From positions 1 to 64,000 of the forward strand of contig JAICTZ010000036.1 of assembly GCA_025936115.1 (NCBI GenBank): a stretch of DNA of 64,000 nucleotides, written 5' to 3'. Shown one piece after another: positions 3,599 through 13,413 of the stretch. Position numbers and translations under genes: made by a program. The notes beneath the pieces were generated by a model that was not told the origin of the DNA, did not search any database, and was given only the letters and a program-made list of their open reading frames with translations. Each line of letters starts with the position of its first letter. Positions within the stretch are counted from its first letter, which is position 1. Source of the stretch: Polyangiaceae bacterium (GTDB taxonomy: Bacteria; Myxococcota_A; Polyangia; Polyangiales; Polyangiaceae).

Positions 3599-5293
3599 TC
3601 ACTCGAGCTGGAACGTCACGACGCCGTCGACGTGCAGCTCGGGGTGCGTGAACGTCACGCCGTCGTCCGCGATGTCGCCATGACAATGGCTGCAGGGATA
3701 GCTCGGGAGCGGGTGCGGCGTGGGCGGTGGCACGCCGTGGCAGCTGCCGCACTTGGCCTGGCTGCCGTCGACGCGGGTCCACGTCGGCGTGGTGTTCGAG
3801 CCGCCCGAAGGGTCGTCGGGGAAGACGGCGCCGTGGCAGCTCGTGTTTCGGCAGCTGCCGTTTCGATATTCGGGCTTTGCGCCGTGAGCGAGCGCGACGC
3901 CCGAGAAGGCGAGCTCGGCGGGGAGATCCGAGTCGATGTGCCCGGCGTCGAGCACCTTCTTCGGCACGACGTGGCATTCTCCGCACGGCACGGCGCGCGA
4001 ACGCTCGGTGCCGAGCACGTGCGTCTGGTGAGCGCCGACGCCGGCCGCGCTCGTCTTCGTGTGGCCGAGGGTGTCGGAGGGGGGCGCGGGATTGACCGAA
4101 CCGTGGCAGCTCGTGCAGTCGCTCGTGACTTTCACGTCGACGGTGCCGTTTACATGACGACTTCGGTCGATGATGGTGTGGTCGTCGGAGCCGACGACGT
4201 CGCCGTGGCAGGCCGAGCAAGTCGTGGTCTGCGGGTGCGGTAGCGGCGGCGGGGCGCCGTGGCACGACGTGCAGTCGAGTGGCTTTTCGACGTTCCACTC
4301 AGGTGAGCTGCGCTCGTCGCCTGGCGAGGGCGCGTGACAGTAGCCGCCGGCGCACGTGGCGCTCGCGCGATCCCAGCTCGGGTGATGCCCGGCGGTCTCC
4401 GCGACGCCGCTGAACGTCACTTCGGCGGGCAGTCCGTCGATGTGCGTCGGATCTTCGACGTGTTCGGGCACGACGTGGCATTCGCCGCACGCGAGCGGCC
4501 GGCCGAACGCGCCACCCTGCAAGTGCACTTGGTGAGCTCCCACACCGATCGCGGCGACATCGACGTTGCCGAGCGTATCGGCGGGCGGCGCCGGGTTCTC
4601 GTCGCTGCCGTGGCAGTTCTTGCAGTCGCCGGCTTTGTACTCGACGACGCCGTCGACGTGCAGCTCGGGCGCGATGATGTGCCCCGCCGCATCGATCACG
4701 TCAGCGTGGCACGTCGAGCAGCGGTCGGACTGCGGATGCGGCGACGGCGGCGGTAGCGCGTGGCACGTCCCGCAGGCGTCAGCGCTCGTGCGCGGCAGGC
4801 TCCAGACGGCGTCGGAGCTCCGGTGGCAATACGTGTTCCCGCAGCTCTGCGTCGCGGCGTCGAACACCGGCTCGCGCTCGCCCGTCTTGCCGAGCGTTCC
4901 GAACACGACCTCCGCCGGGAGCGCGCTATCGGCGTGACCGGGCGAATCGACTGCCGCGGGCACGACGTGGCACTCGTCGCAGGCTATCGCCGCGTGCGTG
5001 CCACTCGCGTTCAAATGGATGTCGTGCGCGCCGACGCCCGGATAGCTCGGGTCGGTGTTGCCGCCGAGGTCGACGGGTGGCGCCGCGCGGCGCACGAAAT
5101 CGCCCGCCCGGTGCGGGTCCCCGTGGCAACTCGTGCAGCGGGCGACGTCGGCGTTCGTCACCGGTTCGTCGCGTCGTTCGAGGCACGCGGGCGCGCTGAG
5201 CGCTGCGATCACGGCGCCCGCGAGCACGACTCCGAGCGAAAGCGTCGCGCCGCGGGCGAACGCCCGACCCCGTCGTGGCCGCGGCTCAGCCAT
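3599..5293 (-). CDS. 15-motif multiheme c-type cytochrome (3 x 5 repeats)
   Basis: 564 residues. An Arg-rich N-terminus and a hydrophobic segment end in SAPAC, a possible but non-canonical lipobox. The rest carries 12 CxxCH and 3 CxxxxCH motifs. They form three successive repeats in the same order: CxxCHG, CxECHVVP, CxxxxCH, CxxCHxxPPPxPHP, CxxCHxD. This matches the Geobacter-type CxxxxCH/CxxCH family of exported cytochromes. ATG 5293 overlaps the stop of the 12-heme gene by 8 nt, so the two genes are translationally coupled at the end of the minus-strand operon. Probable role: an outer-surface or periplasmic electron carrier. The partner and final acceptor are unknown. Confidence 0.88.
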   Translation of the reverse strand: MAEPRPRRGRAFARGATLSLGVVLAGAVIAALSAPACLERRDEPVTNADVARCTSCHGDPHRAGDFVRRAAPPVDLGGNTDPSYPGVGAHDIHLNASGTHAAIACDECHVVPAAVDSPGHADSALPAEVVFGTLGKTGEREPVFDAATQSCGNTYCHRSSDAVWSLPRTSADACGTCHALPPPSPHPQSDRCSTCHADVIDAAGHIIAPELHVDGVVEYKAGDCKNCHGSDENPAPPADTLGNVDVAAIGVGAHQVHLQGGAFGRPLACGECHVVPEHVEDPTHIDGLPAEVTFSGVAETAGHHPSWDRASATCAGGYCHAPSPGDERSSPEWNVEKPLDCTSCHGAPPPLPHPQTTTCSACHGDVVGSDDHTIIDRSRHVNGTVDVKVTSDCTSCHGSVNPAPPSDTLGHTKTSAAGVGAHQTHVLGTERSRAVPCGECHVVPKKVLDAGHIDSDLPAELAFSGVALAHGAKPEYRNGSCRNTSCHGAVFPDDPSGGSNTTPTWTRVDGSQAKCGSCHGVPPPTPHPLPSYPCSHCHGDIADDGVTFTHPELHVDGVVTFQLE

Positions 5294-6347
5294 GGCAATA
5301 CCTGCACATCTCGGCGTCGACACCCTGCGAGCTCTTCCAGCCGCGCGGGTGCGGGTTGCCTCCGTTGCCGCCCACTTTGTGACAACGAATGCAGTTGGTG
5401 GCGGGACCCGCTTCGTGGCAGCCGGCGCAAGCGACGACAGAGCGCCGCGCGACCGTGCCGTGGAAGCTCGGCGAGCTCGTATCCGGGCCCACCCAGCCGA
5501 TCGGGTGTGGATTCTGCGGATTGGCGACGTTCGCGCTCACGCCGCGCGCCACGTGACAGGAGTCGCAGGTCTCGACCGTGTGGCAGGAGAGACAACGCGC
5601 CGGCTCCGAGCGCGCTTCGATCGCATGGCGTGTGACGAAGTCGCCGCGGTGCACTTGTCCCGACTCGAGCGCCTCCGGCCGGCGTGCTTCCACGGTCATA
5701 GCCTGCGTCACGTCGTGGCACTGCTGGCACTGCGATTGCGTGTGGCAGCTCTGGCACAATACGGCTTGTTGGCGCTGCGCGAGCACGTCGCCGTGGTGAC
5801 GCAAGAAGGCGGTGTCGTGCTTGAGGAAGCTCACGGGCATCGTTTGGCGTAGCGCCACCGGGTCATGGCAGGGCGTGCACTCGCCGCGCTCCCATTGCTC
5901 CTGGTGCTCGTGGCAGCCGAAACATTGGCTCATCGGCGGTAGCGGGGGACGCTTCGCATCCACGACGCCGGCGTGGCACGGCACGCACTGGCCGCGGATC
6001 TCGGGCAGCGCCAAGTGCTGGTCGTGATCGATCGTGATCTCTCCGCTCACGCGTACGGGCGCGACGGCGAGCACGGCGCGCGTCTCGTGCGCGTCTTTGT
6101 GACAGCGGTCGCACACGGCCGCATCGGGCATGCGGTGGTTCGTGTCGTTTTCCGCGACCGAGTGGCAGCTGACGCAGTTCATGCACGCCGGCTTGCCGGG
6201 CGCGCCGCACGCAATGCCCGTGAGGTGCTTTTGATGGGGGAAGCGCGGCGGCGCCGAGGCGCCCTGGCAAGCGATGAGCGCGGCGAGCGCGACGGTGAGC
6301 CACAAGACGAACGTCGCGGACAATGAGAGCGCGTGGCGGCCGTTCAT
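5286..6347 (-). CDS. 12-heme c-type cytochrome lipoprotein
   Basis: 353 residues. The signal peptide ends in LAALIAC, a plausible lipobox. Twelve CxxCH motifs are spread over the whole mature protein, with many free histidines between them that could be distal ligands (NDTNHRM, HQKHLTG, HDQHLAL), suggesting bis-His hemes. The ATG overlaps the stop of the barrel gene as ATGA, and its own stop overlaps the next cytochrome start by 8 nt. It sits between a putative outer-membrane barrel and a 15-motif cytochrome. It is likely the periplasmic or barrel-embedded wire of a porin-cytochrome conduit; this role is inferred from context. Confidence 0.88.
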   Translation of the reverse strand: MNGRHALSLSATFVLWLTVALAALIACQGASAPPRFPHQKHLTGIACGAPGKPACMNCVSCHSVAENDTNHRMPDAAVCDRCHKDAHETRAVLAVAPVRVSGEITIDHDQHLALPEIRGQCVPCHAGVVDAKRPPLPPMSQCFGCHEHQEQWERGECTPCHDPVALRQTMPVSFLKHDTAFLRHHGDVLAQRQQAVLCQSCHTQSQCQQCHDVTQAMTVEARRPEALESGQVHRGDFVTRHAIEARSEPARCLSCHTVETCDSCHVARGVSANVANPQNPHPIGWVGPDTSSPSFHGTVARRSVVACAGCHEAGPATNCIRCHKVGGNGGNPHPRGWKSSQGVDAEMCRYCHG

Positions 6348-7804
6348 CGGATCCTCGGGCGCACCGGCGTGTCGAAGCGGTAGGTCACGCGCAGCATGGT
6401 CTGGGCATCGAGCTCCGCGTACGGTGAGCGCGCCAGCGAAACGCTCCACAGCACGTCGAGCGGATCGAGCACGCGGTACGACGCCGTCCCCGCATACATC
6501 GACGACGTGCGGTAGCCCGCGACGGGCGCATCGTAGAAGTAGCCGTACCCTTCGAGCGTCGCCGACAGCCGCTCGAAGAGGCGACGACTGAGCGAGATCC
6601 GCATGGCTTGATAGCCGTTCTGCGGCGCGATCACTCGCGCGTAGGCGATGCGCACGAACGTCGCGTGGCCTTGGTCGAGCCTGAGGCGCGTGGCGATTTC
6701 CCCGCGCGCGCCCGGCCCGGTGTCGCGATAGGCTTCGACGTAGCCGTTCGCTTCCAGTCTGAGCCAGCGCCGTAGCTTCGCGCCGAACGTGCCGCCCACT
6801 TCTTCGTACGTGTTCGTCGAAAATACCGACAAGACGGACTGGCGCGAAAGCAGGAGCGACGGCTCGGAATGCAGGTATTCGGCGCCGAGATCGATGATCG
6901 GGTGCGGCGTGGCATCGACCCACACGCGCCCCTGCGCGACGCGACCGCTGTCGAGGTCGAGGATGGCACTCCCTCCCGACGAGACTTCGTCGATGGGCTG
7001 GACCCCCACGTCGAGGCCGAGATTGCGGTGCTCGACTTGGCCTCTTGCCTGCTCGTCGTGAAACGACACGCTGCCGCTCACGCGGCCGAGGGTGTACCCG
7101 ACGCGCGCGCCGGCGAGAAAGTGATTCTTGCGTTCCGGCGGCGGCAGCGGCGCCGTGAGCAGCGTGTCTTCGGCGGCGCCGAGCTGATGGTACCCGAGCC
7201 GATCGTCCCAGCGCGGCAGCACCGTGAACCCGCCGTAGCCCTCCGCGAACAGGCCGCCGACCTTGCCGCCCGCCATGACGCCGTCGAAACGTGCGTAGCG
7301 CGCGGCGCCGCCCGCGATCTGCTGCCGGCCGAGCCGCGCCCAAGCCGGCCCCGCGTCGAGCCTGACGCTCGCGGTTTGCACGTCGCCGTCGAACGGTCGC
7401 TCGAGCGCCGTGCTCGTCGGCCAGAGTTGGCCCCAGGCCGCGAATTCGAAGCTGATGGCGTCTTTCTGCCAAGGCGCGTCGACGTCGCGTGCGTTCGCGT
7501 ACAGGTATTCGTTCACGGGCACGGCCGTCTCCGTCGGCACCGCCGTTCCGTTCTGCCCGGGCACGAGCGCGCGGCGATAGAGCTGCACGTACGTCTCGCT
7601 GCGCCCGCTCACGCTGAAGCGATCGGGCGTGTCACTCGGCGCTTCCTTACCTACAGTCGCGCTCGTGCCAGCGGCCGTGCGCGTGCTCGCGCCCGTGCTC
7701 GTCGTTGCCTGCGGCTCTGCGGCTCGGGCGCGCCCCGTCACGAGCACGAGCAACACCTGCGACGAGGTCGCGAGCACTCGTCGAAGCCCAGCCGCGCGCC
7801 TCAT
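6344..7804 (-). CDS. putative outer-membrane beta-barrel of a porin-cytochrome conduit
   Basis: 486 residues. A signal peptide (LVLVTGRARAAEP) is followed by a low-complexity Thr/Ala linker. The rest shows alternating hydrophobic/polar segments with aromatic girdles typical of beta strands (SFEFAAWGQLW, HFLAGARVGYTLGRV, LDLGAEYLHSEP, MYAGTASYRVLDPLDVLWS). The C-terminus MLRVTYRFD resembles a last strand with extra residues after it. It has no heme motif. It is coupled by ATGA to the 12-heme cytochrome gene and lies 114 nt downstream of the 27-heme gene. By analogy with MtrB or Geobacter porin-cytochrome loci it may be the sheath of an electron conduit. Sequence similarity to MtrB was not evident by eye. 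Confidence 0.7.
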   Translation of the reverse strand: MRRAAGLRRVLATSSQVLLVLVTGRARAAEPQATTSTGASTRTAAGTSATVGKEAPSDTPDRFSVSGRSETYVQLYRRALVPGQNGTAVPTETAVPVNEYLYANARDVDAPWQKDAISFEFAAWGQLWPTSTALERPFDGDVQTASVRLDAGPAWARLGRQQIAGGAARYARFDGVMAGGKVGGLFAEGYGGFTVLPRWDDRLGYHQLGAAEDTLLTAPLPPPERKNHFLAGARVGYTLGRVSGSVSFHDEQARGQVEHRNLGLDVGVQPIDEVSSGGSAILDLDSGRVAQGRVWVDATPHPIIDLGAEYLHSEPSLLLSRQSVLSVFSTNTYEEVGGTFGAKLRRWLRLEANGYVEAYRDTGPGARGEIATRLRLDQGHATFVRIAYARVIAPQNGYQAMRISLSRRLFERLSATLEGYGYFYDAPVAGYRTSSMYAGTASYRVLDPLDVLWSVSLARSPYAELDAQTMLRVTYRFDTPVRPRIR

Positions 7805-7918
7805 ACCCGGCGGCCAGCATTAGTGCCGGCGCCGCCGCGGAGCAACCGCATACTTTGCGGCAACGCAGCACGATCAGCCGGCGTTTCGGCGCGCGGCCAC
7901 GCGACGACAGCCGCCTAC

Positions 7919-9721
7919 TCACGGTGTCTTCGTGAAGAGATGACACCCGACGCAGCGCGGGCTTTCGGGGAAGTGCTGGTCGCGGTCTTTGTGGCACGTC
8001 ACGCATACGCTGCGAGCCATCGCTTTGGGGTCGTTGTGACCGCTGTGGCACTGGGTGCACGGCTGGTGTTTCGACTCGGCGTGCAGACCCGGCAGCTCGC
8101 TCGGTTTGTGGCAGCTCGCGCAGGCCGGAACGGCGGCGACGCCCTTCGGACCGTGCGGGCGATGACAGGTTTGGCAGCCGCTGCCGATTTGGCCGTGAGC
8201 GCTGTGCTGTTCGCTCTGGTGGCAGTCGGCGCAGGCTTTCAACGTGGGCAGGCCGGCATGCGGTTCGTGGCAGTTCGTGCACGCTTGGTGGCCGGTAGAT
8301 GCGGTCTGACGTTCTGTTTTATGGCAACTCGCGCACGCAGTGCCTTGCGCGCCGGAGTGCGGCTCGTGACAACCGATGCACTGCTTGTGACCTGCGTTGA
8401 CGAGGCCTGCTTCTTTGTGGTGACAACTCGAGCAGGCGACTTTGTCGACCTCAGGATGGTGGGGAAGGCCGGCGTGGCAATTGGTGCAGGCTTGATGGCC
8501 CTTGTTTGCGGCCGTCTCGTGGACGCGTTCGCTGTGGCAGTCGGAGCAAAGCGTCGTGCTCGCGAGCTCGAGGCCGAAGGCGTGCGGCTTGTGGCACTTC
8601 GTGCAGTCGGTGTTGCGGTGAGCGCCGTCATCGCTGTTCGCGATTTTGTGGCACGTCGTGCAGCTGCGGACGTCGACGGTCGCGGCGACGCGCGCGGGGT
8701 GCGGGTCGTGGCACGTGACGCACGCGCCTTGCTGCGCGGGATGATCGGAGTGCACGTCCTTGTGGCAGTTGGCGCACGCGCCGAACGCGCTCGCTTTGAC
8801 GTTGTGCGGCGAGTGGCAGTTGGTGCAGCCGTTGTGCGCGCCGATGCGGCCGCCGCCGATGACGTTCAGTCGTTCGTGGCAGGAGCGGCAGGCGACCGCT
8901 TGCTTGGCGTCGAAATCGTGAGGTTTGTGACAGCCCGTGCACGCCGTGTGACCTTTGTCGAAGAGCGCCGTCGCCGGGATGATGGGTTCGTGCGTGGCGT
9001 GGCACGCGGTGCAGGTGCCGAGCGCATCCTTGGCCGGGGCATGTCGATGCTCGTGGCACGTGGAGCAGACTTCGACGAGCGTCTTGCCGGCCGACGCGTG
9101 CGTGGTCGCGATGTCCTTATGGCAGCCGTCGCAGGGCGCCGACGTTGGCGCGCCTTCGTGCGGTTTGTGGCAGCTCAGGCACGGCTGCGTGCCGTGGACG
9201 ACGACGGCAGGGGTGTTGCCCTGCGCGGTCGCATGACAGCGTTTGCAGTCACTCGCTTCGTAAGATTCGATACCGAGCGCGAAGTTGCCGGCGCCGCCGT
9301 CCATGGGAACACGGGGCGGCGCGCCCTTGAGCATGGCCTCGTCGTGTTTGGTGCCCTCGAGCGTGAAAGCGTGACAGGTGGTGCAAACCGCCTTCGTTCC
9401 AGGGCCGAAGCGCCGCTCGGCTTCGGCGTGGGCGTGCTCGATACGGCCCTCCTTTTCGTGACAACTCACGCAGCGATCGGGCGTCACCGGGCCCATACCG
9501 CTCTCGGTCGGCGCGTGGCACTTGGTGCACTCGAGCTTGTTCTTGACGACGTGGATACGGTGTCCGGTCACCTCGCGCGCGACGGCGAACGCCTTGTCGA
9601 TGTAAACACCCTCGCCCCACTGACCCTTCTTCGAGGGTTCTTTGTCCGCGCACGCAGCGAGCACGGCGATGACGAGCATCGCGACGAGCGCCCACGTGGA
9701 AACGGCTTGCCGCTGCTCCAC
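7919..9721 (-). CDS. 27-heme c-type cytochrome lipoprotein
   Basis: 600 residues. The signal peptide ends in VLAAC followed by ADKEP, a clear lipobox. I count 27 CxxCH motifs, one per about 22 residues. Most lie in a repeating pattern of GHxxCxxCHxPH alternating with xACxxCHxxE, so nearby His residues can provide sixth ligands. No other domain is visible. The start is GTG 9721. This is the first gene of the minus-strand cytochrome operon and is divergent from the NapC-like gene (69 nt between starts). High heme density and lipidation fit a cell-surface electron wire or capacitor; this is inference. A long open frame on the opposite strand is a shadow of the Cys/His codon repetition. Confidence 0.9.
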   Translation of the reverse strand: MEQRQAVSTWALVAMLVIAVLAACADKEPSKKGQWGEGVYIDKAFAVAREVTGHRIHVVKNKLECTKCHAPTESGMGPVTPDRCVSCHEKEGRIEHAHAEAERRFGPGTKAVCTTCHAFTLEGTKHDEAMLKGAPPRVPMDGGAGNFALGIESYEASDCKRCHATAQGNTPAVVVHGTQPCLSCHKPHEGAPTSAPCDGCHKDIATTHASAGKTLVEVCSTCHEHRHAPAKDALGTCTACHATHEPIIPATALFDKGHTACTGCHKPHDFDAKQAVACRSCHERLNVIGGGRIGAHNGCTNCHSPHNVKASAFGACANCHKDVHSDHPAQQGACVTCHDPHPARVAATVDVRSCTTCHKIANSDDGAHRNTDCTKCHKPHAFGLELASTTLCSDCHSERVHETAANKGHQACTNCHAGLPHHPEVDKVACSSCHHKEAGLVNAGHKQCIGCHEPHSGAQGTACASCHKTERQTASTGHQACTNCHEPHAGLPTLKACADCHQSEQHSAHGQIGSGCQTCHRPHGPKGVAAVPACASCHKPSELPGLHAESKHQPCTQCHSGHNDPKAMARSVCVTCHKDRDQHFPESPRCVGCHLFTKTP

Positions 9722-9790
9722 GCGCCCATCCTAGTGCAGCGTGTCCCAAACTAGCGACGTACTTTACCGCTTGCCTGCGCGCGGCTTTCC

Positions 9791-10537
9791 TTGGAGTATC
9801 CCCGTGCCGTGCCTCATGCTGGCCCTTGGCTTGGCTACGTTGCGCTCGTCAGCGGGGCGATCGCTGCGAGCATTTTGCTCTATTTCTTGATCAAGCGGCC
9901 GCCGCTCGATCTGGGGATGAAACTCGCGCTCTTGCTCGGACTCGGCGTGTTTCCGGCCGTTTGCGCCGCGACGTCGACCGTCGCGGGCATGGAGCAGACC
10001 ACGCACCGCGAATTTTGTGGCTCCTGTCACACGATGGACGAGCACTTCGAGAACGCGACCGATCCTCATGCCCAGTCGCTGGCGGCTCGCCACACCAGAA
10101 ATCCCTTTTTCGGCGAAGAGAGCTGCTACGTCTGCCACGCCGATTACGGCATGTTCGGCTACGCCCTCACGAAGTTCGGGGGCATGAAGCACGTTTACTA
10201 TTACTATCTGGGCGGTTATCGGGGGATGACGAAAGACGAATCCCGGCGCGACGTCCATATCGCCAAGCCCTACGACAACACGAACTGCCGGCAGTGCCAC
10301 ACGACGACGGCGCACGTTTGGCGTTCAGTGCCCGATCACACCGCGCTGCAAAAAGAGCTCGCCGCAAACAAAGTGAGCTGCGCGAGCCCCGGCTGCCACG
10401 GCTTTGCCCATCCCTTCACGAAAGGTCCGAATGGGCTCGGGGCACTGCCGCCGGCGTCCTCGAGCGCCGCCCCGGCTGCCGCCGCGGATTTTGCGCCGAG
10501 CGCGTCCGGCCGACCGGCAACGGGACACGCGCCGTGA
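9791..10537 (+). CDS. NapC/NirT-like membrane-anchored tetraheme cytochrome
   Basis: 248 residues. Two N-terminal hydrophobic segments are visible (LGYVALVSGAIAASILLYFL and LALLLGLGVFPAVCAATSTV). They are followed by CGSCH, CYVCH, CRQCH and a CxxxxCH (CASPGCH), with the NapC-like context HREFCGSCHTMDEH. This family oxidises membrane quinol and passes electrons to periplasmic cytochromes (NapC, NrfH, CymA). The Ala/Pro-rich tail is extra. The start is uncertain: TTG 9791 gives the longest product, while GTG 9809 has GGAG 12 nt upstream. Its stop overlaps the next gene (GTGA). It is the likely electron entry point for the cluster. Confidence 0.85.
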   Translation: MEYPRAVPHAGPWLGYVALVSGAIAASILLYFLIKRPPLDLGMKLALLLGLGVFPAVCAATSTVAGMEQTTHREFCGSCHTMDEHFENATDPHAQSLAARHTRNPFFGEESCYVCHADYGMFGYALTKFGGMKHVYYYYLGGYRGMTKDESRRDVHIAKPYDNTNCRQCHTTTAHVWRSVPDHTALQKELAANKVSCASPGCHGFAHPFTKGPNGLGALPPASSSAAPAAAADFAPSASGRPATGHAP

Positions 10538-10842
10538 GCGTCTTTCACCGCGTTCGCGAGTGGGCGATCCATCGTTTGCGGCAGCGTTCGATCGTGTTCA
10601 CGGCGCGCGCTGCGTGTTGGGTGGCGCTCGTCGGCCTCGCGGTCATGTGCTCCTCCATCATCTATCCGATGCCGCTGCTCATCATTTTCGCGATGAGTGT
10701 CGGTCAGGTGATTGGCATCGTCGCAGTGCTGCTGTACTTGGTGTCCATCTTGGGAGATGTGATCCGCGGCAGTGATCACTCACCAGACGCTCCTGGCCCC
10801 GCGCGCAAATTTCGCGCGTCGGACGGGACCAACGCGCCATAA
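10534..10842 (+). CDS. small membrane protein coupled to NapC-like gene
   Basis: 102 residues, starting at GTG 10534 that overlaps the preceding TGA by three bases. It has a basic amphipathic N-terminus ([16 protein letters not shown]), two hydrophobic helices (about residues 27-48 and 52-74) and a polar tail. No heme motif and no recognised domain. Tight coupling suggests a subunit or assembly partner of the NapC-like quinol dehydrogenase. I do not recognise the family. Confidence 0.7.
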
Positions 10843-10964
10843 CTCGACACGATTTCCGGCGCCGCCGAGTGCACTCGAAGGTTGACGCTCGGAGTCTCGT
10901 CTGCGAGCATCCCGCCCGCGCTCGCTACTCGAAGCGCAGTGCTTGTCGGAATCGGAGGAAGCGC

Positions 10965-12350
10965 ATGAAGAAGTCTTGGGGCATGGCAATCGTTTTGGGC
11001 TTCGTTGTCCTCGGTTGCTCGGGTGAAGACGGCAAGCAAGGCGCCACTGGCCCCGCGGGTCCCAAGGGCGCGAAGGGCGATACCGGCGATACCGGTCCGG
11101 CAGGGCCGGTAGGCAAAACAGGACCTGCGGGACCCGAAGGTCCTGAAGGTCCTGAAGGCCCCGCGGGCCCGGCGGGCGAACCCGGCGGTGAAGCGGGTGC
11201 AGGCGGACAAGGAAACACGACCGTCCCCACGGGCACCTTGAACGCGAGCTGCATGATGCCGTGCCACACGTTCTCCGGCATCGTCGAACAATGGAAGACG
11301 AGCCGCCACTACGCGACCTACGTCGCGAACCTCGGCGGGGACGAAGCCGAATCCTGGACGGGACCCAAGGCTTGCGGCAACTGCCACGCCGTCGACGGTG
11401 TGCAGCAGCGGACCACCGGTAACGTCGCGTACAACAACGCCACGGGCTCCGAGGATCCGGAACACGGGCAGCTGAACTACAAAGACTCCGTCTCGGGCAA
11501 GGTGAGCGAGACTACGTACGCAGGTCAAGCGACCGTGGCTCAGGTCGGCTGCGCCACGTGCCACGACAATTCACTGGAGCATGATCCGCACGTGACCGGG
11601 GCTGACTACGCCAGGGGCGATTTCCCGCTGCGAGTCCCCTCGGATACGGACGACTACGTCCTCATCGAAAAGAGCTCCGCCGTTGGTACGGTCGACGGCA
11701 CGGCGATCAAGTACACCGCAGGCAACGCCTGCATGTGGTGCCACAAATCGCGCAAGGACGTGACGAACTACATCCTCGCGGGTGACACCAGCAATAACAT
11801 CACGAGCAACACCTGGGGCCCGCACGAGGGGCCCGCCGCCGACGTCTACTCGGGCAAGGGCGGCTACGAGTGGTCCGCTCAAGGGGACTACAGCAACTCC
11901 TCGCATCAGGGCTTTTCGAACGGCTGCGTGCGGTGCCACATGCCCCCCGTCGCGGACAACATGAACATCGGTGATCACTCGTTTTATCCGCAGCTCCAAG
12001 TCTGCACGACGTGCCATGCCGGCGCGAAAAGCTTCGACGTCTCTGGCGGACAGACCTACATCAAGCAAAGCCTGCAAAAGCTGCGCGTCTTGCTGAACAC
12101 GGACGGGCTCCTCACGCGCGACGGCACGAACCCGCTGAATTCCACCGATCTCAACGATCAAAACTGGAACCAGGACAACGCGCTGCCGAAGAGCGGCGTC
12201 TCGGCCGATCACGCGGGCGCCCTGTACAACTACTTCTTGATCGCGCGCGCCTCGGGCTACGGCGTTCACAACCCGAACTACGCGAAGGATCTGCTCTTCG
12301 ATTCAGTCGCCAAGATGGGCGGCAGCACGAGCGGTATGGTGCGGCCCTAG
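10965..12350 (+). CDS. collagen-like lipoprotein multiheme cytochrome
   Basis: 461 residues. The signal peptide ends in VVLGC (lipobox, Cys18). It is followed directly by about 19 Gly-X-Y triplets (residues about 20-76, e.g. [19 protein letters not shown]), a collagen-like stalk. The C-terminal domain carries five CxxCH motifs (CGNCH, CATCH, CMWCH, CVRCH, CTTCH) and one unusual CMMPCH with three residues between the cysteines. The tail [15 protein letters not shown] resembles the end of other decaheme-type cytochromes. ATG 10965 is supported by GGAGGA five nt upstream. The upstream in-frame extension has no signal peptide and is rejected. Expected on the cell surface, with the heme head held away from the membrane by the stalk. 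Confidence 0.88.
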
Positions 12351-12546
12351 ACGGGCTTTCACCGCCTCGGTCGCCTGCTGACCCGCACGGGGCGCGCGCC
12401 ATGGAGCGCGCGCTCGACGAGGATGCGCCGCCACGCCCGATATCTCGCTGAGTGCTCGCTCGTGTCGTGAGCTTCTGCGCCGCGTGCTGCGTCCGGAGGG
12501 CAACTTCGTGGTAGTGACGACGCCCCGAGTTGCTGGAGGTACGAGC

Positions 12547-13413
12547 GTGGCCAAGAAGGACAAGAAGAAGCACAAGAATCAGCGCCACGAAAACGGGCAG
12601 GTCGAGCCGCTCGTGGCGAGCCCGTCGAGCGCGCCGGCGAACTTCGGACGTAAGGAGTACGACGCGGAGCTGAAGAAGCTCCACGTCGAGCTCGTGCGCC
12701 TGCAGCGCTGGGTCGTGCACCGCGGGCTCAAAGTGTGCATCGTGTTCGAGGGGCGCGACGGCGCCGGTAAGGGCGGCACGATCAAGGCGCTCAGCGAGCG
12801 CGTGAGTCCGCGCGTATTTCGCGTCGTCGCGTTGCCTTCGCCGACGGAGCGCGAAAAGAGCCAGATGTACGTGCAGCGCTACGTGCCGCACCTGCCGGCC
12901 GCGGGAGAAATCGTGATTTTCGACCGCAGTTGGTACAACCGCGCTGGGGTCGAACGCGTGATGGGCTTCTGCTCGGACAAGGAAGTGCGCTGGTTCTTAC
13001 AGACCGTGCCGCAGTTCGAGTTCGCGATGGTCAAATCCGGCATCATCCTGCTCAAGTACTGGCTCGAGGTGAGCCCGGAGGAGCAGGAGCGGCGGCTCAA
13101 GGCGCGCATCGACGACGGCCGCAAGATCTGGAAGCTCTCGCCCATGGATCTGAAGTCGTTCGATCGCTGGGACGACTACACTGAGGCGCGCGACGACATG
13201 TTCCAGGTGAGCGACACGGAGTGGGCGCCCTGGTTCGTCGCCCGCTCCGAGGACAAGAAGCGCGTGCGGCTCAACGTGATCTCCCACATCCTTTCGCGCG
13301 TCCCGTACGAGAGCGTGCCGGAAGACGACGAGCGCATCGAGCTGCCAGCGCGCAAAATCGGCCGTCACGCGCCGAAGGACTTGCCGCTCAAGTACGTGCC
13401 GGAACGCTTCTGA
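12547..13413 (+). CDS. ppk2: polyphosphate kinase 2 family
   Basis: 288 residues. PPK2 enzymes transfer phosphate between polyphosphate and nucleotides in the cytoplasm. Walker A is FEGRDGAGKGGT (about residues 68-79). The Walker B/lid region is IVIFDRSWYNRAGVERVMGF. The typical C-terminal SFDRWDDYTEARDDMF and WFVARSEDKKRVRLN follow. The N-terminus is Lys-rich. The start at GTG 12547 is set by GGAGGT seven nt upstream. It is a stand-alone gene 196 nt after the collagen-like cytochrome and convergent with the AI-2E permease gene. Confidence 0.92.
   Translation: MAKKDKKKHKNQRHENGQVEPLVASPSSAPANFGRKEYDAELKKLHVELVRLQRWVVHRGLKVCIVFEGRDGAGKGGTIKALSERVSPRVFRVVALPSPTEREKSQMYVQRYVPHLPAAGEIVIFDRSWYNRAGVERVMGFCSDKEVRWFLQTVPQFEFAMVKSGIILLKYWLEVSPEEQERRLKARIDDGRKIWKLSPMDLKSFDRWDDYTEARDDMFQVSDTEWAPWFVARSEDKKRVRLNVISHILSRVPYESVPEDDERIELPARKIGRHAPKDLPLKYVPERF

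Follow-up and report, generated by a model that had tools for sequence, protein, structure and literature searches.

The seven genes at positions 3599 to 12350 in a 64-kb stretch of contig JAICTZ010000036.1 (assembly GCA_025936115.1, Polyangiaceae bacterium; hereafter, the window) raise the question of whether a myxobacterium can pass electrons across its own envelope. The genes encode five multiheme c-type cytochromes, a predicted outer-membrane beta-barrel, and a small membrane protein. An earlier, sequence-only reading of the window had interpreted the cluster as a porin-cytochrome conduit, and that interpretation is supported by the architecture of the locus and by its conservation in relatives. 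We consider it probable that the seven genes specify a self-contained porin-cytochrome conduit with a barrel other than MtrB.

A divergent cluster with 64 heme motifs

The five cytochromes carry 64 heme motifs (59 CXXCH, 4 CX4CH, and 1 CX3CH), distributed among the proteins as 15 (12 CXXCH and 3 CX4CH), 12, 27, 4 (3 CXXCH and 1 CX4CH), and 6 (5 CXXCH and 1 CX3CH). These numbers are identical to those counted previously. Chance is not an issue, because the five stop-to-stop frames are the only ones, across all six frames of the 64 kb, that contain at least two CXXCH/CX4CH motifs; for the same reason, a frame artifact can be rejected.

Four of the genes lie on the minus strand, running from 9721 down to 3599 in the order 27-heme cytochrome (7919 to 9721), barrel (6344 to 7804), 12-heme cytochrome (5286 to 6347), and 15-heme cytochrome (3599 to 5323). 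The plus strand carries, between 9791 and 12350, the genes of a NapC/NrfH-like tetraheme membrane protein (9791 to 10537), the small membrane protein (10534 to 10842), and a 6-heme collagen-like lipoprotein (10965 to 12350). Both promoters are presumed, from position only, to lie within the 69 bases that separate the two operons (9722 to 9790). The earlier reading had listed six exported proteins, of which the five cytochromes and the barrel stand, and had overlooked the small membrane protein as the seventh gene. Its description of both operons as translationally coupled holds for three junctions, where genes overlap by 4 bases (barrel/12-heme), 38 bases (12-heme/15-heme; 8 bases if the alternative 15-heme start, ATG 5293, is used), and 4 bases (NapC-like/small protein), and fails for two, where gaps of 114 bases (27-heme/barrel) and 122 bases (small protein/6-heme) are found. 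The NapC-like gene could begin at either TTG 9791 or GTG 9809. For the 6-heme gene, ATG 10965 is more likely than GTG 10869, because it is preceded by a GGAGG stretch and directly followed by the signal sequence.

Conservation across the phylum

Relatives of the barrel and of the 12-heme protein recur in the phylum. As a single query, the window barrel was found in at least 28 of the 183 genomes of the order, and the profile of its family was found in at least 77 of the 377 genomes of the phylum. The 12-heme profile detected at least 147 of the 377 phylum genomes (E = 1e−25) and at least 101 of the 289 genomes of the class (E = 1e−44). All of these counts include the window's own genome and, like other genome counts given here, are lower bounds (4 to 8 candidates were scored per genome). 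No relatives of either protein were found on plasmids. The 13 named barrel loci come from ten assemblies, all of them metagenome-assembled genomes, and are assigned to Polyangiaceae (4), Myxococcales (3), Deltaproteobacteria (3), Polyangia (2), and Sorangium sp. (1).

To describe gene neighborhoods, we used 71 stretches: the window, 50 stretches selected by the barrel (30 places from the order-level search, out of 31 found besides the window, and 20 from the phylum-level search), and 20 stretches chosen for 6-heme/12-heme matches. The 71 are not independent, given that two of them (L118 and L199) overlap and some genomes contribute two. In all 50 barrel-selected stretches, a 12-heme-type gene follows the barrel gene on the same strand. 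Measured from the barrel stop codon, the first aligned 12-heme residue lies at −21 to +48 bases in 47 of the 50 and no farther than 357 bases in the remainder. A 15-heme-type gene is also present in 47 of the 50 stretches. The conservation check that the earlier reading had called for thus shows the barrel, 12-heme, and 15-heme genes recurring together across relatives.

The other parts were found in fewer stretches. Among the 71 stretches, we counted the 12-heme type in 69, the barrel in 68, the 15-heme type in 64, the 27-heme type (20 to 36 motifs) in 42, the NapC-like protein in 26, the small protein in 24, and the 6-heme protein in 22, with profiles that were built iteratively on the very stretches counted. 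All seven parts occur together in 16 of the 71 stretches, a fraction biased by the choice of 20 stretches for 6-heme/12-heme matches, and in 3 of the 50 barrel-selected stretches (L026, L027, and L113). A stretch from another class of the same phylum (L110) has six of the seven parts and a collagen decaheme protein. In 17 stretches (L028, L033, L036, L037, L039-L042, L047, L048, L050, L052-L054, L099, L198, and L200), the 27-heme protein is replaced by one with 28 to 34 motifs, in several cases with an adjacent 9-heme protein.

The 6-heme protein, found in at least 32 of the 289 class genomes, tends to occur with the 12-heme protein. A strong 12-heme type is present in 27 of the 32 genomes with the 6-heme protein versus 74 of the 257 genomes without it (Fisher's test, P = 1.5e−9, kinship ignored and both searches assumed to have covered the same 289 genomes). 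In 21 of the 27 genomes the two genes are on one contig, and in 17 they are within 5 kb of each other. Five 6-heme genomes have no strong 12-heme match, and two of the five have weak 6-heme matches only.

Properties of the barrel and the cytochromes

As the earlier reading had supposed, the 486-residue product of the gene at 6344 to 7804 is predicted by AlphaFold2 and Foldseek to be an outer-membrane barrel. The AlphaFold2 model, built from 14 sequences, has a mean predicted local distance difference test score (pLDDT) of 75.6 and a predicted template modeling (TM) score of 0.71, with 223 residues at a pLDDT of 90 or higher. It contains 22 long strands, as counted from the strand listing. Nine of ten turns on one side are of two residues, and the loops on the opposite side are of 2 to 34 residues. 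Residues 1 to 60 have a pLDDT below 50, and no plug domain was seen. Among the best 50 of 384 Foldseek matches at an E value of 0.001, every one is an outer-membrane barrel (TM score to the query, 0.23 to 0.45).

By sequence, the barrel has no Pfam match over the cut-off (best, Romo1, E = 0.027) and no NCBIfam match, and its profile has no match among solved structures. None of 24 family members matches Pfam or NCBIfam at an E value of 0.01; NCBIfam includes a model of ExtKL, and its coverage of OmbB, ExtB/ExtE, ExtI, and OetI is not established. An identity with MtrB/PioB is rejected by profile, given that none of the 24 members matches any Pfam model and that the window's own genome has no match to PF11854. 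This agrees with the earlier impression that the barrel is not MtrB-like. PF11854 was detected in 1 of the 79 genomes searched (G109), where it is on contig C25 and the 12-heme-type match is on contig C129. The suggestion that the locus may represent a new conduit type can be retained in a narrower form: the barrel is distinct from the families with public profiles or solved structures, to which the comparison was limited.

When 14 barrel sequences are aligned, the longest conserved segment is LSRQSVLSVFS (residues 319 to 329; window positions 6818 to 6850), which falls mostly in a low-confidence loop (residues 316 to 328) that strand counting places outside. In the wider set of 24 sequences, only two of its residues are still invariant. 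The segment is a possible site of cytochrome contact.

A second, distantly related barrel gene is paired with a 13-heme cytochrome gene on contig C80 of the same genome (L149:9348-12232; barrel, E = 5.7e−12; cytochrome, E = 7.7e−46), and no other multiheme frame is among those listed in the 20 kb around it. The same lone pair is seen in six further stretches (L150-L155), several of them in genomes of one or two contigs.

The 12-heme protein, a probable lipoprotein (Cys27) and the likely occupant of the barrel, has its 12 motif histidines and 11 further histidines invariant in all 24 aligned sequences, down to 32% identity. This pattern is as expected of a wire of bis-histidine hemes with one heme ligated otherwise. 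Against the PDB, its profile matches multiheme proteins in general (best, 3ov0, E = 1.2e−13) and, weakly, 6r2q chain A (E = 1.2e−6), which we take to be MtrA, the name printed in the match listing being a different one. These matches may partly reflect the spacing of heme motifs alone. With a crude test for lipobox-like starts, in which the barrel family served as a control (7 of 68 stretches), the 12-heme family is called in 57 of 69 stretches and the 6-heme family in 19 of 22.

The 15-heme protein has a signal sequence, a lipobox that appears weak by eye, and three CX4CH/CXXCH repeats. It matches TIGR01904 in three stretches of the protein (E = 2.9e−30), a model without a match in any of 14 control genomes. 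The 27-heme protein matches the cytochrome c7/c3 and Paired_CXXCH repeats of Pfam. It has, by eye, an N-terminal lipobox (LAAC) and is a candidate for a periplasm-spanning or outer wire.

The tetraheme protein matches PF03264 (50.2 bits versus a cut-off of 24.1, E = 3.1e−13), and its profile matches NrfH (2j7a, E = 1.2e−7). In the window and in 13 aligned relatives, out of 25 with the gene, its final heme motif has the CX4CH form; there is at least one exception, with four CXXCH instead (L104). In NrfH, we take the quinol-site residues near heme 1 to be Lys82 and Asp89. The NapC-like family has an invariant lysine one column off that lysine and a histidine at the column of the aspartate. By family, the protein likely oxidizes quinol and is a candidate quinol dehydrogenase. 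The small membrane protein, with about two hydrophobic helices by eye, starts within the stop codon of the NapC-like gene (a GTGA overlap), and all 24 stretches with its relatives also have the NapC-like gene. It matches DUF2516 weakly and below the cut-off (E = 0.0018) and is possibly a quinone-site or assembly partner.

Downstream of its lipobox, the 6-heme protein has 19 uninterrupted Gly-X-Y triplets (PF01391, 28.4 bits versus a cut-off of 27.2). At the 0.29-nm rise per residue of a collagen triple helix, the stretch would be about 16 nm long if such a helix is formed. In 15 of 15 aligned sequences (the window plus 14 from the 21 further stretches that contain the protein), the six motif histidines and six other histidines are invariant. 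Because the latter six are invariant, there is a candidate second ligand for every heme. The histidine numbers of both the 12-heme and the 6-heme families fit fully ligated transfer hemes.

The 6-heme protein itself is below the cut-off of PF22113, the model of MtrC/MtrF domains (17.1 versus 30 bits). Near the barrel/12-heme core of relatives, however, three 10-heme collagen proteins match this model (L088:5681-8176, L097:7276-9558, and L052:15894-18089; E = 2.2e−53, 7.9e−48, and 2.6e−51). A local profile made from these three decahemes identifies 9- or 10-heme proteins in 9 of the 71 stretches, the founding three included. The window's own genome has three PF22113 matches on other contigs, at 22 to 26 bits singly. 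Two of them are just over the cut-off when neighbors are counted in (31.3 and 32.7 versus 30), and none is a clear full MtrC-type protein.

A proposed electron path, its rivals, and known conduits

We propose that the NapC/NrfH-like protein and its small membrane partner would take electrons from quinol of the inner membrane and that the 27-heme protein would carry them through the periplasm. The 12-heme lipoprotein, produced together with the 22-strand barrel and sitting in or against it, would provide the passage of the outer membrane. An external acceptor such as a mineral, humic matter, or another cell would be met by two outer partners, the 15-heme protein and the 6-heme lipoprotein with its collagen-like stalk. 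The quinol step and the placement of the 12-heme protein in the barrel are suggested by family knowledge and gene coupling, and the other steps are suggested by lipoprotein signals and gene position. We infer the order of the chain, the surface exposure of the last proteins, the outward direction, and the nature of the acceptor.

Several observations weigh against this conduit. The AlphaFold2 model of the 12-heme protein is unusable (mean pLDDT, 47.5), so that its placement in the barrel is putative. The Foldseek matches of the barrel are generic, and MtrB is absent from the best 50 of the 384. By the crude test, lipobox-like starts are few in the 15-heme (25 of 64 stretches) and 27-heme (9 of 44) families, and the locations proposed for these two proteins are accordingly tentative. 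Forty of the 71 stretches have neither the 6-heme collagen protein nor the decaheme type; some of these are truncated where a contig ends, and another collagen-repeat multiheme frame is present in at least five of them (L030, L031, L041, L109, and L115). PF22113 is not fully specific, since it is passed by a 9-heme protein in L052 (32.3 bits) and by Escherichia coli, alone among the 14 control genomes; for that reason, only its high scores (162 to 181 bits) carry weight. The barrel/13-heme pair described above, of the same superfamily, stands alone, with no further multiheme genes nearby. Finally, the C-terminal part of the 6-heme protein passes the Pfam cut-off for cytochrome c552 (PF02335, 32.7 versus 24.1 bits, E = 5.3e−8), a match equally compatible with an enzyme and with a carrier.

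This last match bears on the possibility that the locus encodes a nitrogen-oxide respiratory reductase. The 6-heme protein would then be an enzyme belonging to the NrfA/octaheme superfamily, placed at the surface or in the periplasm, and would receive its electrons from the NapC-like protein and the remaining cytochromes. The pairing of NapC/NrfH with NrfA is classical, and the profile of the 6-heme family detects both NrfA and octaheme nitrite reductases (best, 8bcx, E = 2.4e−5). The PF02335 match, however, spans positions 235 to 372 of 438, about a third of the profile (138 positions), and two relatives are below the cut-off (18.7 and 20.1 bits). The likeness to NrfA is confined to the C-terminal part, there is no CXXCK motif, and six invariant spare histidines for six hemes suggest that no catalytic heme is left open. 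Moreover, in some related clusters the collagen repeat is carried by MtrC/MtrF-type proteins, and a reductase would leave the barrel and the 27-, 15-, and 12-heme proteins unexplained. A nitrite reductase is therefore the less likely reading of the 6-heme protein, and we consider such a pathway for the locus quite improbable; the set as a whole cannot be assigned to the nitrite or tetrathionate pathways that the earlier reading had named as its alternative, NrfA-like though one part of it is. It is also conceivable that the barrel merely conducts solutes, as other channels do, and that the cytochromes serve as a periplasmic electron store or a buffer against oxidative stress, with nothing passed outside. 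The best Foldseek matches are indeed solute or polymer channels, such as chitoporin and AlgE, and the barrel has no match in any family tested. We regard this explanation as very unlikely in view of the barrel/12-heme pairing in 50 of 50 stretches, the lipobox-like starts of the 6-heme and 12-heme families, the collagen-like stalks, and the MtrC/MtrF-type neighbors in some relatives.

A further possibility accepts the conduit and reverses it, so that electrons from outside (from Fe(II), a partner cell, or a cathode) reach the quinone pool or oxidases. The parts of a conduit do not fix its direction, and OetABI is proposed, in the available text of PMC10553843, to pass electrons inward in the partner bacteria of anaerobic methanotrophic archaea (ANME). 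In the window's own genome, six heme-copper oxidase matches exceed the cut-off; two of these lie at contig ends and may be fragments of a single gene. Because of these matches the host probably also respires oxygen, which would make oxygen a possible final acceptor of such a flow. NapC/NrfH-like proteins, on the other hand, usually oxidize quinol, and we consider inward flow unlikely.

Returning to the outward conduit, its plan resembles those of MtrCAB/CymA of Shewanella and of PioAB/MtoAB, in which a NapC/NrfH-type quinol dehydrogenase, a wire within a barrel, and a surface cytochrome act together. MtrC/MtrF-type domains are also found in some related clusters. In contrast, MtrA has 10 hemes and the putative wire of the window 12, and the window barrel differs from MtrB/PioB in that none of its 24 family members has a Pfam match. 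The Geobacter clusters ExtABCD, ExtEFG, ExtHIJKL, and OmaB-OmbB-OmcB, as described in the available text of PMC6148476, likewise combine a barrel with a multiheme cytochrome of the periplasm and, in most cases, with lipoprotein cytochromes on the outside, and their ExtA, ExtD, and ExtG have 12 hemes, as does the putative wire of the window. Unlike the window, they are described there without a NapC-like protein, a 27-heme protein, or a collagen-bearing cytochrome, and the membrane spans given are 18 for ExtB and 21 for ExtE/ExtI, compared to the 22 long strands predicted here. OetABI of ANME-partner sulfate reducers, according to the same available portion of PMC10553843, also combines a barrel with a periplasmic cytochrome and a lipoprotein cytochrome on the outside, and these are often accompanied by additional outer cytochromes, including one with 6 hemes; this likeness is by description only. 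A conserved operon of Geobacter, Anaeromyxobacter (another myxobacterium), and SEEP-SRB1 encodes very large multiheme proteins (of 16 and 26 hemes), a feature that the window shows as well, but its core, in the available text of PMC5539420, lacks a barrel and includes a prolyl isomerase along with a beta-propeller protein. What unites porin-cytochrome conduits as a class is their plan and function; the existing members are not related to one another. The window has a predicted outer-membrane barrel and a multiheme cytochrome gene overlapping the barrel gene, which is consistent with membership of that class.

We found no description of the gene set in the literature that we searched on porin-cytochrome systems, multiheme cytochromes, or extracellular electron transfer in Myxococcota, Polyangia, and Anaeromyxobacter (subscription journals and preprints were outside its scope), including the available parts of PMC12133095, PMC10367259, and PMC12403892, nor did that literature yield a description of a collagen-like multiheme cytochrome. 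Multiheme proteins are reported in Myxococcota metagenome-assembled genomes, with Anaeromyxobacter named and no such cluster described in the text available (PMC11495043). In the parts of PMC10954620 and PMC11495043 available, Anaeromyxobacter is named as capable of, or as encoding cytochromes for, extracellular electron transfer, and the premise of the sequence-only reading that the lineage is usually considered aerobic is too strong if taken as purely aerobic.

If the conduit is real, extracellular respiration would be a common fitting in a large, little-cultured part of Myxococcota. Conduit searches that depend on models of MtrB, OmbB, ExtB/ExtE, and ExtI, the barrel models of one survey (available text of PMC7399161), may miss this barrel, and mounting a multiheme cytochrome on a collagen-like stalk would be a novel means of keeping a redox protein at a distance from the membrane. 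Which aerobic-looking myxobacteria respire outside the cell becomes a directly testable question. Going further, we tentatively conjecture, and hold it doubtful as a whole, that Myxococcota have a conduit barrel type of their own, widespread and early in the phylum and unrelated to those described. In some lineages it would belong to a complete quinol-to-surface locus in which a collagen triple helix bundles three 6-heme (or MtrC-type 10-heme) heads about 16 nm out. Soil bacteria with a reputation as aerobic predators could in this way respire minerals or tap their neighbors.

Outside the cluster, the window contains an open reading frame that by eye resembles a REP-type transposase (266 to 1192) and, directly past the 6-heme gene, one that by eye encodes a polyphosphate kinase 2-type protein (12484 to 13413).

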